From Halobacteriovorax sp. JY17 (GTDB lineage Bacteria; Bdellovibrionota; Bacteriovoracia; Bacteriovoracales; Bacteriovoracaceae), in NCBI RefSeq assembly GCF_002753895.1, contig NZ_NJER01000001.1:1674910-1738909 (forward strand): a stretch of DNA of 64,000 nt. Direction: 5' to 3'. Shown here piece after piece: positions 47,797 to 56,133 of the stretch (position 1 is its first letter; each line of letters begins with the position of its first letter). Under the pieces are notes generated by a model. That model was not told the DNA's origin and did not search any database. It saw nothing but the letters and a program-made list of their open reading frames with translations. Both the position numbers and the translations under genes were made by a program.

Positions 47797-48570
47797 TTGA
47801 ATGAATTAAGAGTTCTCGTACTCATTCCTGCTCGCTATGCGTCGTCGAGGTTTCCTGGCAAACCTCTGGCAAAAATCTCTAAAAAATCAATGATCCAAAG
47901 AGTTTATGAAAATTGTTTGGGAATAAAAAACCAACTTAAAAACTCAGTTGTTAGTGTTGTTACAGACGATTCAAGAATCGAAGATCATATTAAGAGCTTT
48001 GGTGGTGAAGTTGTTCGTGTAGATGATGATGTAGCTTCTGGCTCAGAACGAATCGCACTTGCCCTTGAGAGGTTTTATTCAGATAGAGAATGGGACTTTG
48101 TGATCAATGTACAAGGAGATGAGCCACTTATTGAGAGCGATCTTCTGTCGAGGCTTGCTAAGTATCATTCTGAAAGTGACTTTGATATGGCCACTGTCGT
48201 AAAACCATTTTCTGGAAATGAAGGTGAGCATTCAGATGTAAATAAAGTAAAAGCAATTTACAGTCCTGTACGCGGACAATGCCTCTATTTTTCAAGAGCG
48301 CGTCTTCCATATTATAGAGATCAAGTAGAAGCGCAGGATTGGTTTCTTCATATTGGAATTTATTCATTTAAACCAAATATTCTAAAAGCTTTTTGTAAGC
48401 TTCCGCTCTCGCACTATGAGAATATAGAAAAATTAGAACAATTAAGAGCGCTAGAGAATGGTTATACTATTGGCGCCATAAAAACAGAAATGACATTAAT
48501 GGGCGTAGATGTCCCTGATGATATTAAAAAACTTGAAGGAGTACTCCGTGAAAGGGAAATCGAGTCCTAA
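47797..48570 (+). CDS. kdsB: 3-deoxy-manno-octulosonate cytidylyltransferase
   Basis: 257 residues from a TTG start with CGGAG seven bases upstream; the nearby ATG is out of frame. The enzyme makes CMP-Kdo from CTP and Kdo. Signatures: [49 protein letters not shown] and YFSRARLPY. The 3' end overlaps pyrG by 23 bases. First gene of kdsB-pyrG-kdsA-kdsC, in which pyrG supplies the CTP this enzyme uses. Confidence 0.95.
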
Positions 48571-50155
48571 GAAATTTATTTTTATTACTGGAGGAGTGGC
48601 AAGTTCTTTAGGGAAAGGCCTTGCTGCTGCAAGTATTGCAGGTCTTCTAGAAAGAAGAGGACTCAAAGTTAATATGCTTAAAATGGATCCTTATATAAAT
48701 GTTGATCCAGGAACGATGAGCCCAACTCAGCACGGAGAAGTTTTTGTGACTGACGATGGTGCTGAAACAGATTTAGATTTAGGTCACTACGAGAGATTTA
48801 CTTCGCTGACTTTGAGCCGAACAAGTAATTTCACAACAGGTCAGGTTTATTTACAAGTCATTGAGAATGAGAGAGAGGGAAAGTATCTTGGAAAAACTGT
48901 TCAAGTTGTTCCCCATATCACAGAAGAAATAAAGAGAAGAATTCATATAGCTGCTGAAGATACTGAAGTTCTTCTTGGTGAGATTGGTGGAACAGTAGGA
49001 GACATTGAGTCACAGCCTTTTGTTGAATCCATTAGACAACTTGCTCAAGATGTTGGCCCTGAAAATGTACTTTTTGTTCACTTAGTGCTTGTTCCGTATC
49101 TTGGTGCGGCAGGTGAGTTGAAAACAAAGCCGGCGCAACATTCAGTGAAAGAACTTAGATCGATGGGGCTTTTTCCTCACATTGTTATTTGTAGATCGGA
49201 TAGAGAAATTGAACAGTCTCTAATTGATAAAATTTCTCTATTTTGTAATGTGCAAAAGGAAAATGTTTTCCAATCTATTGATGTCGATACAATTTATCAA
49301 GTACCACTGAGTTTACATGCCCAAGGTCTTGATCAGAGAATTGCAAATCTTCTTGGTATCTGGGCCGCAGCTCCAAAAATTGATGATCTTGAGAAAGTTG
49401 TTTACAACTTTAAGCATCCTCTTAGAAAAGTAAAAATTGGAATAGTTGGAAAATATACTGAGCTTGTAGAATCTTATAAGTCATTGGACGAAGCCTTAAA
49501 TCATGCGGCCAATTCATGTCAGCTAGAGCTAGACCCTGTTTATATAGACGCGGAAGACTTGGAAAAAGGAAAGGATTCAATTCTTTCAGAGGTTCAAGGT
49601 ATTCTCGTTCCTGGTGGTTTTGGTCAAAGAGGGACGGAAGGAAAAATTCAGGCAATAAAATTTGCAAGAGAAAATAAAATTCCATTCTTTGGAATTTGTC
49701 TTGGAATGCAGCTTGCTATGATTGAGTTTGCTAGAAATATAGTAGGTCTAGAGCAAGCAACGAGTGAAGAATTTGGCAGTGCAGGGGACCTGGTCGTTCA
49801 CTTTATGGAAGGTCAGAGTCAAGAGGGAACTAAAGGTGGTTCCATGAGGCTTGGTGCCTACGAGTGTGACCTTGCTGATAAATCGTACGCGAAGAAAATT
49901 TATGGAAGCACTAAAATTAGTGAGAGACATAGACATAGGCTTGAAGTTAATAATTTATATACGTCGAAAATTAGTGATGCTGGAATGATTATTTCTGGAG
50001 TGAATAAAGAACTTGATTTAGTTGAAGTTGTAGAGCTTTCAGATCATCCTCACTTTATTGCTTGCCAGTATCATCCTGAATTTAAATCTCGTCCGTATAC
50101 TCCACACCCATTATTTAAATCATTTATAGAAAAGGCAGATCAATATGGAAAATAA
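48548..50155 (+). CDS. pyrG: CTP synthase
   Basis: 535 residues from the GTG at 48548, with AAGGAG at good spacing. Synthetase domain: [41 protein letters not shown]-terminal glutaminase domain: [19 protein letters not shown] with the nucleophile Cys, and HPEF. Converts UTP to CTP using glutamine. Embedded in the Kdo operon and overlapping both neighbours, which ties CTP supply to LPS precursor synthesis. Confidence 0.97.
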
Positions 50156-50954
50156 GAAAATGGACTTTTTTATAGGTCCTTGTGTTTTAGAAAGTGAAAC
50201 GCTTGCAATGGATATTGCAGGCAAATTAGTTGAAGATCTAAAAGAGTTTGAAGATAAGATTCAATTACATTTCAAAGGAAGTTTTGATAAGGCCAATAGG
50301 TCATCGATTGATTCCTATAGAGGCCCCGGAATTGAAGCAGGTCTTAAGATTTTAGAAAAAGTAGGAAAGACTTACTCTCTACCTACTATTACTGACTTTC
50401 ATCACCCTGAACAGGCCGAGCAGATAGCATCAGTGGTTAAGACATTACAGGTTCCGGCTTTTCTCTGCCGTCAGACTGATATGATTTTAGCTGGAGCCGA
50501 GGCGTGTGCTAAGTATAGTGGTCAATTAAAAGTTAAGAAGGGACAATTTTTAAGTCCTGAAGAAACTAAGAATATAGTGGATAAGGCCTTAAACTTCTTA
50601 ACTAAGGATCAAATTCTATTAACTGAGCGTGGGACGAGCTTTGGTTATAATAACCTCGTCGTTGATATGGCCAGCTTTCAGATCATGAAGAGTTTTGGAG
50701 TTAGAACTATTCACGATGCCACTCACTGTGTTCAAAGACCTGGAGGTCTTGGAACAATTACTGGTGGAAAAAGAGAACAGATCTTTACTCTAGCAAAGGC
50801 CGCTGTTGCAGCAGGTGCAGATGGTATTTTTATGGAGTGTCATCCAAATCCTGAAAAAGCTCTATCTGATTCGGCAACTGCTCTGCAAATTGAAAAAGTT
50901 AAAGAAATCGTCAGGAAATTAATTCAGATCAAGGACGTTGTTAATGCAAGTTAA
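50145..50954 (+). CDS. kdsA: 3-deoxy-8-phosphooctulonate synthase
   Basis: 269 residues. Condenses arabinose 5-phosphate with PEP to give Kdo 8-phosphate. Signatures: [70 protein letters not shown]. Cys in IGPCVLE fits the metal-dependent class, though this is not settled from one residue. Overlaps pyrG by 11 bases and kdsC by 11. Confidence 0.96.
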
Positions 50955-51507
50955 CCTAAGAGATGTTGCAGAAAAATTTAAAGATAAGCTTTTAAAAATT
51001 AAAGTTGTCGCGTTTGATGTTGATGGAATATTAACTGATGGCAGAGTTTGGTATAGTGGCGATGAGATGGGATGGAATCGTTTTACAGATACGCGTGATG
51101 GTTACGGTCTCAAGATGCTAAAGAACTTTGGTTTTAAAGTTGGAATAATTACTGGGGGAGATTCTCTTAGTGTGATTAAGAGATTCAAAGAAAATCTAGG
51201 TCTTGATTTTGTTTACTACGGAAATGAAGACAAGAGAGAGTCTTACAAATTACTTCTTGCAGAAGGGTATCGCCAGGATGAAATTCTCTATGTCGGGGAT
51301 GAGTTCTTCGATGTTCCACTGATGATTGCAAGTGGATTTTCAGCAACAGTTCCTGTTGCTTCTGAAGAAGTTCGAAGAAAAGCTGACTATGTCACTTCTG
51401 TTTCAGGAATTGGTTCTGCCAGAGAAGTTATCGATATTTTAAGGTATGCTCATGGGCTTTACCCTGAAGTTTTAGACTTAGACGGTAATATTATTAACTT
51501 TGAGTAG
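50944..51507 (+). CDS. kdsC: Kdo 8-phosphate phosphatase (HAD family)
   Basis: 187 residues from the ATG at 50944, with AAGGA nine bases before; a TTG two codons earlier is less likely. HAD motifs: DVDGILTDG (nucleophile Asp), ITGGDS, the KdsC-type GNEDKRESY, and VGDEFFDVPLM. Removes phosphate from Kdo-8-P before KdsB activates it. Completes the Kdo pathway except for the arabinose phosphate isomerase, which is not in the window. The end overlaps the convergent LuxQ-like gene by 14 bases. Confidence 0.93.
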   Translation: MQVNLRDVAEKFKDKLLKIKVVAFDVDGILTDGRVWYSGDEMGWNRFTDTRDGYGLKMLKNFGFKVGIITGGDSLSVIKRFKENLGLDFVYYGNEDKRESYKLLLAEGYRQDEILYVGDEFFDVPLMIASGFSATVPVASEEVRRKADYVTSVSGIGSAREVIDILRYAHGLYPEVLDLDGNIINFE

Positions 51508-53614
51508 GTTTTCCAATAGGGATGCTTACTTCGAAGTGAGCACCACTTTCTTGTGCTTCACTTACTAAAATTAAATCACCAGACATCTCTCTCATGAGCT
51601 GTCTGGAAATGCTTAGACCAAGTCCTGTTCCACTCCCCATTCCCTTTGTTGTATAAAAAGGAGAGAATACTTCTTCTTCTATTACTTTAGGAATTCCTGG
51701 GCCTGAGTCGATGAAGTGTATAACACATATATCTTCTTTGACTTCTGTTGAAATTTTAATTTCTTTAATACTTGAATCTTTTAAAGCATCAATTGAATTG
51801 TTAATTAAGTTTACAAGGACTTGGGAGAATTGAGTTTCTTTCGTTATAATATTAAGAGTTGTATCAAGAGAAGAAATATCTAATTTGATTTTATTCTTCT
51901 TCATTTTTTCTTCAATAAAGATAAGAGTTTTAGAAAGAATAGTGTTCAAATTCTTTGATTCAAGTTTATCTTTACTTCCTTCCCTTGAGAAATCTAAGAG
52001 ATTCGAAATAATCTTTGAAGTTCTATTTACTGAGCTTTCAATATTTCTCATGGTTGTAGAAATCTTGTTTTTCTTTTCTTCGCTTTGTATTTCAATGAAG
52101 CTGAGCTCGTGTTCTAACATTGTTAGAGAGAGTGAAATGATACCCATTGGGTTGTTGATTTCATGTGCAATACTACTTGCTACCTCACCAATTGCAGCTA
52201 GCTTTTGATTGTGAATTGACTTTGATCTCTCTGCTTCTATTTGAGCCTGGGTTTCTACTTTCTCTGTATTATCTATACATTGTATGAAGATATAATCTTC
52301 TTTCTTATCTTGTATAAAGGTCCAGATGGTATTCTTCCATACTTCAGTACTTTTAAAGTTCATCTCCAGTTCAAAATGCTCGGATCTTTCTTTTAATGAG
52401 GTGAAAACCTTATTAAATTGTGAATTTTCTGTTAACACAGTATCAAGTAGAATATTTCCATTTTTCTGTTTAATTTGAAAAAGCTCTATTGCGGCTTTAT
52501 TTGTTTGAATAATATTTCCCTTATAGTCTAGTATTAAAAGTGAAATAGGTGAGGAGTCAATGAACTTCGCTAGCTGAGATTTCTTCTTTTGAAAGTTATT
52601 AAAAACTTCAATGAAGTTTTCTTCAATGACATTAAACTCTCGAATGATACTTTTTCTTGGAACAGTTGGTATATTTCGAATCATCAGAAGATTAATGGTA
52701 CTTAGCAATCCTTCAAGGGGAGGTGTTATAGTTCTATTGGCAAGATATATTGTGAGGATACATAGAAAAATAGATATGAAGAGAGTTAAAATAAAATTTA
52801 TAATATATGAACTCTTTAGATTTTTAATATAGTCGGAGCTTGTTTGAAGAACAACTTTGAGCCGATTGTTTCCATCAATGGGAATACTCCCTATGAAAAA
52901 TAGTTTACTCTTCACTTGTATAAGCTGATTAAAATCTGCAGTACTTATCTTGTGAATCTCTTCTTGACTGAGTTCCTGAGTTCCAGATACGAAAGTATTA
53001 TTTACAAGAAAGAAAACGTTGTGATTATTTATCTTTTCAGAGAGTCCACTAATGAATTTATTTTTATTATTAATTATATAACCACTATGTATTGTTGCTA
53101 AAACACGGCCAGTGACTTTTGAGATAATTTCTTCTTTTGCAAAGATAATGACATTTTTATTCTCGGTAATATATAGGTTTAGTTCTTTTGGCAGAGGGTT
53201 GTTTGTAATGTAGTTTCTTACTATCTCTCTACTATTAAGTATGTTGAGGCTGACATCAATAATACTTTCTTCACCATCATAGGTTAGAAAAAGAAAATCA
53301 GCATCTAATGATTCATGTATGCCTTTATATAATGTATTTTCTATTTCTTTTTTATCTCCTCTTTCTAGACTTTGAATTAGAGATGAATTATTTACGTATT
53401 GAGACAGTTTGTTACTTCTTATATTTAACTGTGAGTTTATGAAAATTTGAGTGATCTTTTCTTCGTCTTTAAAATCATCAATAGTCTTGTCTCTAAGAAG
53501 TAGCATTGATGAATTAAACTGATTATAAAAGAGAGGGATCGTGACAAGAATGACAATGATGATAATAATCATTCCAAGGAGTACTGAAATCTTATAGTCT
53601 TTAGTTTCTTTCAT
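51494..53614 (-). CDS. LuxQ-like membrane sensor histidine kinase
   Basis: 706 residues. Membrane helices at about 10-30 and 270-292 bracket a 240-residue periplasmic domain, the size of the double-PAS (dCACHE) domain of LuxQ. A HAMP-like linker, PAS at about 345-455, phosphoacceptor His484 (SIAHEINNPMG), then N-box NLINNSIDAL, DSGPGIP and GSGTGLGLSI. It ends after the ATPase domain, so it has no receiver domain, unlike Vibrio LuxQ. It overlaps the LuxP-like gene by 14 bases, in the same order as luxPQ. Kinase certain; AI-2 signalling inferred from its partner. Confidence 0.88.
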   Translation of the reverse strand: MKETKDYKISVLLGMIIIIIVILVTIPLFYNQFNSSMLLLRDKTIDDFKDEEKITQIFINSQLNIRSNKLSQYVNNSSLIQSLERGDKKEIENTLYKGIHESLDADFLFLTYDGEESIIDVSLNILNSREIVRNYITNNPLPKELNLYITENKNVIIFAKEEIISKVTGRVLATIHSGYIINNKNKFISGLSEKINNHNVFFLVNNTFVSGTQELSQEEIHKISTADFNQLIQVKSKLFFIGSIPIDGNNRLKVVLQTSSDYIKNLKSSYIINFILTLFISIFLCILTIYLANRTITPPLEGLLSTINLLMIRNIPTVPRKSIIREFNVIEENFIEVFNNFQKKKSQLAKFIDSSPISLLILDYKGNIIQTNKAAIELFQIKQKNGNILLDTVLTENSQFNKVFTSLKERSEHFELEMNFKSTEVWKNTIWTFIQDKKEDYIFIQCIDNTEKVETQAQIEAERSKSIHNQKLAAIGEVASSIAHEINNPMGIISLSLTMLEHELSFIEIQSEEKKNKISTTMRNIESSVNRTSKIISNLLDFSREGSKDKLESKNLNTILSKTLIFIEEKMKKNKIKLDISSLDTTLNIITKETQFSQVLVNLINNSIDALKDSSIKEIKISTEVKEDICVIHFIDSGPGIPKVIEEEVFSPFYTTKGMGSGTGLGLSISRQLMREMSGDLILVSEAQESGAHFEVSIPIGKPTQS

Positions 53615-54686
53615 TTGAATACCTAAAAGCTTTTTCTATAAGTGAGCTTATTTCTGGGCTACTTGTTTCTTTAGTTATGAGAGTCATACTGCCTGAGAAA
53701 ATTTGAGGTACTTTCTTCGCATTACCTTGGAGGTCTAGTTTTATCGCTTCTGCTATAGCAATGGCACTATCGTCATTCATACGCATGACAGAGAAATCAA
53801 TTCCATTTTTAGTTCTTAGAAGGCTATCTATTTCAGCACTTCCTCCTCCCCAGCCATTTAAGAGAAATTTATGGTCAGCCTTAAACATTTGCGCCTTAAG
53901 ACTTATGTCTGTAGCACAAGATATGATTAAATCTATTTTCTTATTGCGACTAAAAAGGTCCTTAAGTGCAATTTCCACTTTCTTTGGGTTTGCATCTGTA
54001 TAATATCTGCTTACAAGTTTCCATTTTCTATCTTTTGAGAGTTCCTTTATAGCGTAATCTCCCCGCATTTTACTAACATAGCCCTTAGAGTGATAAAGCA
54101 CAGCGTAGCTTCCACCGTTAGGTAGTCTTCTTCCTACTTCTTCAATTAGTTTCTGTGTTCCTTCTTCATGATCAAAACCCACATAAAAGAAGGGTTGGTT
54201 CTTTTCCCAAGACTTCAAAGGTGTTGTTATATTTAGTAAAATTAACTTAATAGGAGAGTAGGCGAGAGTTTGATTAATCAACTTTGAATGCTCTTTGACG
54301 TTTAGAGTGAAAATTAGGTAATCAGGCTTCTTCTTTATTGCCTCTAGTATTTTTGCAGATTCTTTCTTAATATTTCCACCTGTAGGAGTAGGAATAACTT
54401 CAAGCTCAAAAGCAACTTTACTTTCAATAAGTCTCTTTTTGAGCGCCATTATATTTCTCCTCCAGTAATCAGATACTTGATCTTCTGGATAGATCATCAC
54501 AATTTTTGTTTTCTTCACTTGTTTAATTGAAATTTCTTGAGCAGCGTTTTCGACTAATTCTTTAAAACTTCTTAGAATACTAATCTGGTGAGGATATTTA
54601 TTTAAATAATCTTGATAATGCCAATACTCATCCGATGATGTAGTAAAAGAGATAACCAATAATAGAGCAGCGCATATAATCTTCAA
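53601..54686 (-). CDS. luxP: LuxP-like AI-2-binding periplasmic receptor
   Basis: 361 residues from a TTG start with AAAGGA seven bases upstream; signal peptide about 1-19. The sequence follows Vibrio LuxP along its length: DQVSDYWRRN, PDYLIFTLN, LNITTPLKSW, QPFFYVGFDHEEG, KGYVSKMRGD, NGWGGGSAEID, MRMNDDSAIAIAEAIK, AFRYS. By recall of the V. harveyi structure, the nine residues contacting AI-2 borate diester correspond to Gln70, Ser72, Trp75, Asn152, Arg208, Thr259, Asp260, Trp279 and Arg302 here, all conserved. It should bind AI-2 and control the adjoining kinase. Confidence 0.9.
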   Translation of the reverse strand: MKIICAALLLVISFTTSSDEYWHYQDYLNKYPHQISILRSFKELVENAAQEISIKQVKKTKIVMIYPEDQVSDYWRRNIMALKKRLIESKVAFELEVIPTPTGGNIKKESAKILEAIKKKPDYLIFTLNVKEHSKLINQTLAYSPIKLILLNITTPLKSWEKNQPFFYVGFDHEEGTQKLIEEVGRRLPNGGSYAVLYHSKGYVSKMRGDYAIKELSKDRKWKLVSRYYTDANPKKVEIALKDLFSRNKKIDLIISCATDISLKAQMFKADHKFLLNGWGGGSAEIDSLLRTKNGIDFSVMRMNDDSAIAIAEAIKLDLQGNAKKVPQIFSGSMTLITKETSSPEISSLIEKAFRYSNERN

Positions 54687-54813: not shown

Positions 54814-55071
54814 ATGTCAGAATTAGATAAATTTCAGGCCCTTTTAGATGAGGAGTATACTTGGCCAGCTCCCTACTTATTCAAGTTCATTGTCCCTAAA
54901 ACAGAGTTAGAGACTCTGGAGTCCTTAGTTGAAGGGAATCAAATAACAGAAAAGCCATCAAAGCATGGAAAATATATTGCTGTAAGCTTCACTAAACTCT
55001 GTAATTCCTCTAAAGAAGTTCTGGATATGTATGCAAAGGTTTCTGCAATTCCAGGAATTCTATCTCTGTAG
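54814..55071 (+). CDS. DUF493 (YbeD-like) family protein
   Basis: 85 residues from the ATG at 54814, with AGGA about eight bases upstream; an earlier in-frame ATG (54781) would add 11 residues. Family features: TWPAPYLFKFIVPK, SKHGKYIAVSF and the closing IPGILSL, forming an ACT-like fold. Function of the family is unclear; E. coli YbeD sits near lipoate genes, which is not so here. gpsA follows after 33 bases and may be in the same operon. Confidence 0.75.
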   Translation: MSELDKFQALLDEEYTWPAPYLFKFIVPKTELETLESLVEGNQITEKPSKHGKYIAVSFTKLCNSSKEVLDMYAKVSAIPGILSL

Positions 55072-55104: not shown

Positions 55105-56133
55105 ATGAAATATGATTACGCACTTGTTGTGGGCGCTGGAGCCTTTGGGACTTCTATAGCATCTGTTCTCGCAAATAATTTTAAGAAAGTTATTTTAAAG
55201 GTTAGATCTGAAGATGTTTATGAAAGCCTCTTAAGAGGAACCAATGAAGTTTATCTTCCAGGCATTGAGCTGGCCGATAATATTGTACCTGCACTCACTT
55301 GGGAAGAAGTCGATAGTAAGACAAGTGGAAAAATTGAAATTATTGTTTCAGGGCTTCCTACTGCAGGAATAAGTGACTTCTTTAAAGAAAACCGTGATCG
55401 TTTTTCAAAGTATTTTGAAGCTGGTGTACCCCTTGTTTCCCTCTCTAAAGGGATTGATCCAATAACATTAGAAATGGCCGATGATCTATTTTTTGATCTT
55501 TGGAATGAGCATAAAGAGTTATTTACTTTCTTGTCGGGGCCAAGTTTTGCGAAAGAAATTTTAGAGGAGCAGGTAACTCTTGTGACTGCTGCAGGGAGAT
55601 CAAAGCATGTTTTAGAAAGTGTTTCTTCCATGCTTGATACATCATATTTTAAAGTTTTACCAAGTTACGATGTGAAAGGAGTTCTTTTAGGTGGAGCTCT
55701 TAAGAATATTTTGGCCATTGCTGGGGGAATTATTGAGGGACTAGGGTATAACCATAATACTAGGGCCGCCATGATTACTAGAGGAATTGCTGAAATGCTC
55801 CGCTTTGGAAAAGTTTTTAATGCAAGACCTGAGACATTCTATGGTCTAAGTGGAATGGGTGATTTAATTCTTACGACTACTGGGGAGCTTTCAAGAAATA
55901 AAACTTTTGGGTTAGAAATAGCAAAGGGAAGAAGCGCTCTTGAAATCATTAATTCACAAAGAACCGTTGTTGAAGGATTTAAAACAGCAAAAGCTGTTCA
56001 TTTAATCTGTGAAAAATATGGAATTCGCGCAAATATTTTCCAAGGCGTTTATCAAGTTCTCTATGAAGAAGCTATTCCTGGAGAAGTACTAAAGAAATTA
56101 ATGAAACAACCCAGTAAATTTGAGCTTGATTAA
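55105..56133 (+). CDS. gpsA: Glycerol-3-phosphate dehydrogenase [NAD(P)+]
   Basis: 342 residues. Reduces dihydroxyacetone phosphate to sn-glycerol 3-phosphate for phospholipids. Dinucleotide-binding VVGAGAFGTSIASVLAN, then LSKGID, LSGPSFAKEI, the catalytic Lys in LGGALKNILAIAGG, and NTRAAMITRG, GLSGMGDLILT. TAGGAGAAG lies upstream. The end overlaps the convergent dsbD-like gene by four bases. Confidence 0.95.
   Translation: MKYDYALVVGAGAFGTSIASVLANNFKKVILKVRSEDVYESLLRGTNEVYLPGIELADNIVPALTWEEVDSKTSGKIEIIVSGLPTAGISDFFKENRDRFSKYFEAGVPLVSLSKGIDPITLEMADDLFFDLWNEHKELFTFLSGPSFAKEILEEQVTLVTAAGRSKHVLESVSSMLDTSYFKVLPSYDVKGVLLGGALKNILAIAGGIIEGLGYNHNTRAAMITRGIAEMLRFGKVFNARPETFYGLSGMGDLILTTTGELSRNKTFGLEIAKGRSALEIINSQRTVVEGFKTAKAVHLICEKYGIRANIFQGVYQVLYEEAIPGEVLKKLMKQPSKFELD

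Follow-up and report, generated by a model that had tools for sequence, protein, structure and literature searches.

A LuxP-family protein paired with a LuxQ-like sensor kinase in luxS-negative Halobacteriovorax

The 64,000-nucleotide stretch of the Halobacteriovorax sp. JY17 genome analysed here (the window; NZ_NJER01000001.1, positions 1,674,910 to 1,738,909) carries two overlapping genes that a preliminary description read as a LuxP/LuxQ-like pair in a probable predatory bacterium. The locus raises the question of whether a bacterium of this kind is equipped to perceive autoinducer-2 (AI-2), and if so, whose. The host is a Halobacteriovorax and shares its genus with four other genomes (G001-G004); predation by this strain is taken from the genus. 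The features of the locus are collected in Table 1.

Table 1. Coordinates in the window of luxPQ, its encoded domains and its neighbours.
Feature	Position	Strand	Remarks
kdsC-like HAD phosphatase, left neighbour of putative insertion	50938..51507	+	
luxQ-like sensor histidine kinase without receiver domain	51494..53614	-	706 aa; Pfam HisKA, HATPase_c, PAS
HATPase_c catalytic domain	51515..51841	-	Pfam E 6e-20
HisKA dimerisation domain	51977..52189	-	Pfam; phosphoacceptor His in AHEINNP (52148-52165)
Cytoplasmic PAS domain (approximate boundaries)	52235..52579	-	Pfam PAS_8, 22.6 bits vs cut-off 21.8
LuxQ-type periplasmic domain between two TM helices	52805..53527	-	Residues 30-270; hhalign and AlphaFold2 model
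luxP, periplasmic AI-2-binding protein homologue	53601..54686	-	361 aa; signal peptide; TTG start
Span of the nine pocket codons (Q70 to R302)	53781..54479	-	Codon positions
DUF493 gene, right neighbour of putative insertion	54814..55071	+	Followed by gpsA at 55105

The TTG start of luxP is preceded by an AAAGGA motif. A phmmer search of the translated product against all PDB chains returned V. harveyi LuxP as the only strong match (E 2.3e-86 to 5e-86 over 340 residues, ~42% identity), whereas the best non-LuxP chain reached E 7e-4. The two proteins have a common length, and the AlphaFold2 model of the window protein (pLDDT 91.6) superimposes on AI-2-bound LuxP (1JX6) with a TM score of 0.96 and an rmsd of 1.4; structures other than LuxP rank below it, at 12-19% identity. 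In a maximum likelihood tree the LuxP proteins share a single branch that is separate from the sugar binders (support 97/98); the outgroup branches are very long, which makes the exact rooting of the outgroup unreliable, but LuxP membership is clear. Sequence, tree, pocket and fold clearly identify the open reading frame as a LuxP-family protein, as the preliminary description had proposed.

That description also listed nine residues of the window protein as AI-2 contacts at a near-constant offset from V. harveyi LuxP, among them the counterparts of Asp267 and Trp289, which we take to be contacts. All nine were found exactly (Q70, S72, W75, N152, R208, T259, D260, W279 and R302), at an offset of +7 to the V. 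harveyi numbering except for W279, which aligns with 289 (+10), and R302, which aligns with 310 (+8). Seven correspond to the hydrogen-bonding contacts Gln77, Ser79, Trp82, Asn159, Arg215, Thr266 and Arg310 of 1JX6 (PMC9687752), and Asp267 and Trp289 line the LuxP pocket (PMC9920117). The nine positions are invariant in an alignment of V. harveyi LuxP with the proteins of the five Halobacteriovorax genomes, and 83 of the 84 LuxP proteins compared carry the nine-letter string QSWNRTDWR, the sole exception being a Campylobacterota protein (L064) in which E replaces Q. E. coli LsrB, RbsB and MglB and two other Peripla_BP_4 proteins of the JY17 genome hold 0-3 of the nine letters. The gap in PDB scores, the prevalence of the string among LuxP proteins and its absence from sugar-binding relatives argue that the match is not due to chance. 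These data support the view that the AI-2/borate pocket is intact, and on this basis the protein very probably binds borated AI-2.

The same residues bear on the strongest alternative, in which a LuxP-family protein with a changed ligand, such as unborated THMF or another small-sugar borate ester, still signals through the kinase. Identity to V. harveyi LuxP is only ~42%, three second-shell positions have changed (Asp136 to Asn, Phe206 to His and Ser265 to Ala) and LuxP structures are also known with 1-deoxy-xylulofuranose-borate and with a formose-derived AI-2 analogue. However, the second-shell positions in question vary across the LuxP set too, and all nine first-shell residues are kept, among them both arginines that lie close to the borate, so that a change of ligand is unlikely.

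One of the additional Peripla_BP_4 proteins of the JY17 genome (L093, G000:C1:1294506-1295261; 351 aa) has 3 of the 9 pocket letters; in the tree its branch is very long and is placed, loosely, in the vicinity of LuxP.

The kinase gene starts inside the end of luxP, and the two genes, arranged in luxP-luxQ order, share 14 bases (53601-53614). Two transmembrane helices of the kinase enclose a domain of ~240 aa, as in LuxQ. The Pfam LuxQ-periplasm profile (PF09308) gives no score in the window kinase; its orthologue in G002 (L008) reaches 43 bits against a cut-off of 25.7. Profile-profile and fold comparisons were therefore used. Alignment of the periplasmic part with the Vibrio LuxQ N-terminus by hhalign gave 98.4% and E 4e-15. 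For the structure predicted from residues 1-317 (pLDDT 84.6), the five best PDB matches are all LuxQ periplasmic domains from V. cholerae and V. harveyi (TM 0.70-0.73 on target), a fold partly informed by the Vibrio LuxQ relatives in the input alignment. Identity to the solved LuxQ domains is 11-16%, and given this distance, the contact surface for LuxP could have changed.

The likeness to Vibrio LuxQ thus covers luxP coupling, a tandem-PAS periplasmic domain of equal size and fold between two transmembrane helices, and the HisKA and HATPase_c domains that follow. The AHE(I/V)NNP motif with the phosphoacceptor histidine is kept in all five Halobacteriovorax kinases. Vibrio LuxQ is a hybrid sensor kinase with a receiver, whereas Pfam finds no Response_reg domain in the window kinase or its orthologues L006, L008 and L009 and does find one in V. 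harveyi LuxQ (L016). Conversely, the cytoplasmic PAS domain detected by Pfam in the window kinase is not detected in V. harveyi LuxQ, and the score against the NCBIfam LuxQ_Vibrio model (122.7 bits) lies below the cut-off of 1200. The earlier assignment of the kinase as LuxQ thus stands for the overlap, gene order and periplasmic domain and fails for the receiver: judged from its sequence, the protein is LuxQ-like in sensing, not in output. Lacking a receiver, the kinase cannot copy the Vibrio relay from the LuxQ receiver through LuxU to LuxO as such and must phosphorylate a separate response regulator. No response regulator gene adjoins luxPQ in a comparison of the locus across the five Halobacteriovorax genomes. 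Hpt proteins are present in the JY17 genome, none of them linked to the pair.

In all five Halobacteriovorax genomes luxPQ lies between kdsC and DUF493-gpsA. Six genomes from elsewhere in the family, all outside the genus (L105, L107, L108, L110, L111 and L116), have kdsC and the DUF493 gene adjacent, ~15-40 bases apart, beside gpsA. The pair occurs in 6 of 129 family genomes, and luxP in 2 of 182 sampled genera of the phylum. The simplest history is a single insertion in the ancestor of the genus followed by vertical descent. A scan for promoters and terminators at the locus gave terminators that were no better than those of shuffled sequence.

The five Halobacteriovorax LuxP proteins form one clade (100/98) outside Vibrionaceae, and its sister is the Campylobacterota metagenome-assembled genome (MAG) protein L064 (98/92). 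The statement that LuxPQ is best known from Vibrionaceae needs qualification, as LuxP is not confined to that family (the present LuxP set; PMC2561040; PMC12268683). Recent transfer of luxP from Vibrio prey was considered and is ruled out by the separate position of the Halobacteriovorax clade outside Vibrionaceae (100/99). Identity of luxP among Halobacteriovorax is 46-63%, compared with 83-93% for gpsA, and dN/dS of luxPQ is ~0.1 where dS could be estimated, a limited estimate because dS is saturated. By these sequence measures the pair changes more rapidly than the housekeeping genes beside it, yet under constraint.

Several other features of the locus and the family were observed. The sixth luxPQ pair belongs to another genus of the same family (G095) and lies at an unrelated locus (L104:9521-12576); its kinase has 640 aa and no receiver, and the pair is either a separate gain or a relocation. 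A different histidine kinase is found near the DUF493 gene, on the kdsC side, in two other family genera (L106, 3248-4024; L109, 2999-3346; G013 and G095), and sensor genes may therefore have entered this site more than once. A gene cluster at 47797-51507, common to all five Halobacteriovorax genomes, combines kdsB, kdsA and kdsC for KDO synthesis with an intervening pyrG (CTP synthase).

A luxS search, proposed in the preliminary description, detected the positive controls and was negative for all five Halobacteriovorax genomes. The JY17 genome encodes an SAH hydrolase, which recycles SAH without making DPD. An AI-2 receiver without the known sender fits the absence of luxS. Among other LuxP carriers, luxS is present in Arcobacter, Oceanisphaera, Motilimonas and others, and absent from Neptuniibacter, Thalassobaculaceae, Desulfocapsa, Desulfococcaceae and G095, several of these being incomplete MAGs. 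A second alternative is self-signalling, in which LuxPQ would serve to count siblings, perhaps within a single prey cell, where the progeny crowd in the Halobacteriovorax-type life cycle; the DPD would then be the predator's own product, formed independently of LuxS, for example from ribulose-5-phosphate. Routes of luxS-independent AI-2 synthesis have been proposed (PMC7584622), but luxS is missing throughout the five genomes and the JY17 SAH hydrolase route yields no DPD, which leaves self-signalling decidedly improbable, more so than a changed ligand. The last alternative, an ordinary ribose/galactose-type binding protein that adjoins a kinase by chance, draws on the Pfam assignment to the broad family Peripla_BP_4 only and on zero matches in NCBIfam, but is ruled out for practical purposes by the tree, pocket, PDB scores and fold, which all set the protein apart, and is opposed by the LuxQ-type periplasmic domain of its partner.

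The preferred reading is a LuxP receptor for AI-2, a LuxQ-like kinase on which it docks and a signal of foreign origin; built on the observed homology, pocket, fold, pairing, conservation and luxS absence, it is likely as a whole. The pocket of LuxP would bind AI-2 in its borated form (S-THMF-borate). LuxP would dock on the LuxQ-type periplasmic domain of the presumably co-transcribed kinase and switch it between kinase and phosphatase states, and the kinase would act directly on a separate response regulator. We infer this contact and switching, and signalling of LuxP through the kinase is probable on good grounds. Since luxS is missing from the genus, this AI-2 would come from other bacteria, plausibly nearby prey or the prey cell in which the predator grows. 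Detection of prey AI-2 by Halobacteriovorax is plausible from the gene content, and prey as the biologically relevant source is a tentative proposal, somewhat short of an even chance.

AI-2 receivers in bacteria without luxS are not new in kind. Rezzonico and Duffy described homologues of LuxP from marine bacteria that lack luxS and proposed a role for them in sensing producers of AI-2 (PMC2561040), and a 2025 survey compiled 267 LuxP proteins, of which three tested beyond the classic set bound AI-2 (PMC12268683). The luxS-negative Neptuniibacter, Marinomonas and Desulfuromonas (PMC2561040) likewise have LuxP with a different signalling partner; these carriers differ in not being predators and in their output domains. 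Vibrio LuxP (V. harveyi; PDB 1JX6, 2HJ9 and 1ZHH) shares fold, pocket and gene order with the window protein, which differs in its separate clade and in a host without luxS. Similar in architecture are Arcobacter and Campylobacteraceae MAGs (L030, L049 and L088), in which luxP is followed by a kinase of 703-709 aa, with no receiver in the two scanned with Pfam (L030 and L049); unlike Halobacteriovorax, these genomes have luxS.

Elsewhere the gene after luxP encodes a LuxQ-type periplasmic domain joined to quite different outputs (L064:7041-8978, L022:3502-6555, L027:2730-5444, L085:7209-9443, L073:7037-10600 and L070:7131-10478), namely GGDEF, GGDEF-EAL, a SpoIIE phosphatase, or a hybrid kinase with receiver and Hpt. 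From these arrangements the LuxP/LuxQ-sensor module looks portable, and through it AI-2 could come to govern c-di-GMP or phosphatase pathways. The Halobacteriovorax pair is further evidence for the LuxP and LuxQ periplasmic module as a portable sensor joined to different outputs.

No report of LuxPQ or AI-2 in Halobacteriovorax, Bdellovibrio or other bacterial predators was found in the open-access literature searched, and the Halobacteriovorax papers examined make no mention of LuxP or quorum sensing. The prey of H. marinus BE01 includes Vibrio, Pseudomonas and E. coli (PMC5760749), and an AI-2 cue would accordingly be general and not Vibrio-specific. It is possible, though rather less than probable, that these obligate predators gained and fixed a senderless AI-2 receiver at the origin of the genus and use prey AI-2 to gauge prey density or to recognise the interior of live prey, timing attack, growth or exit. 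If AI-2 is bound, Halobacteriovorax predators, which are under study for the biocontrol of vibrios, could perceive a compound that is given off by a great many Gram-negative prey and on which vibrios depend for their group behaviour. This would give AI-2 sensing without luxS a concrete benefit and would place interspecies listening in a predator-prey setting, both sides of which are testable with luxS-deleted prey.
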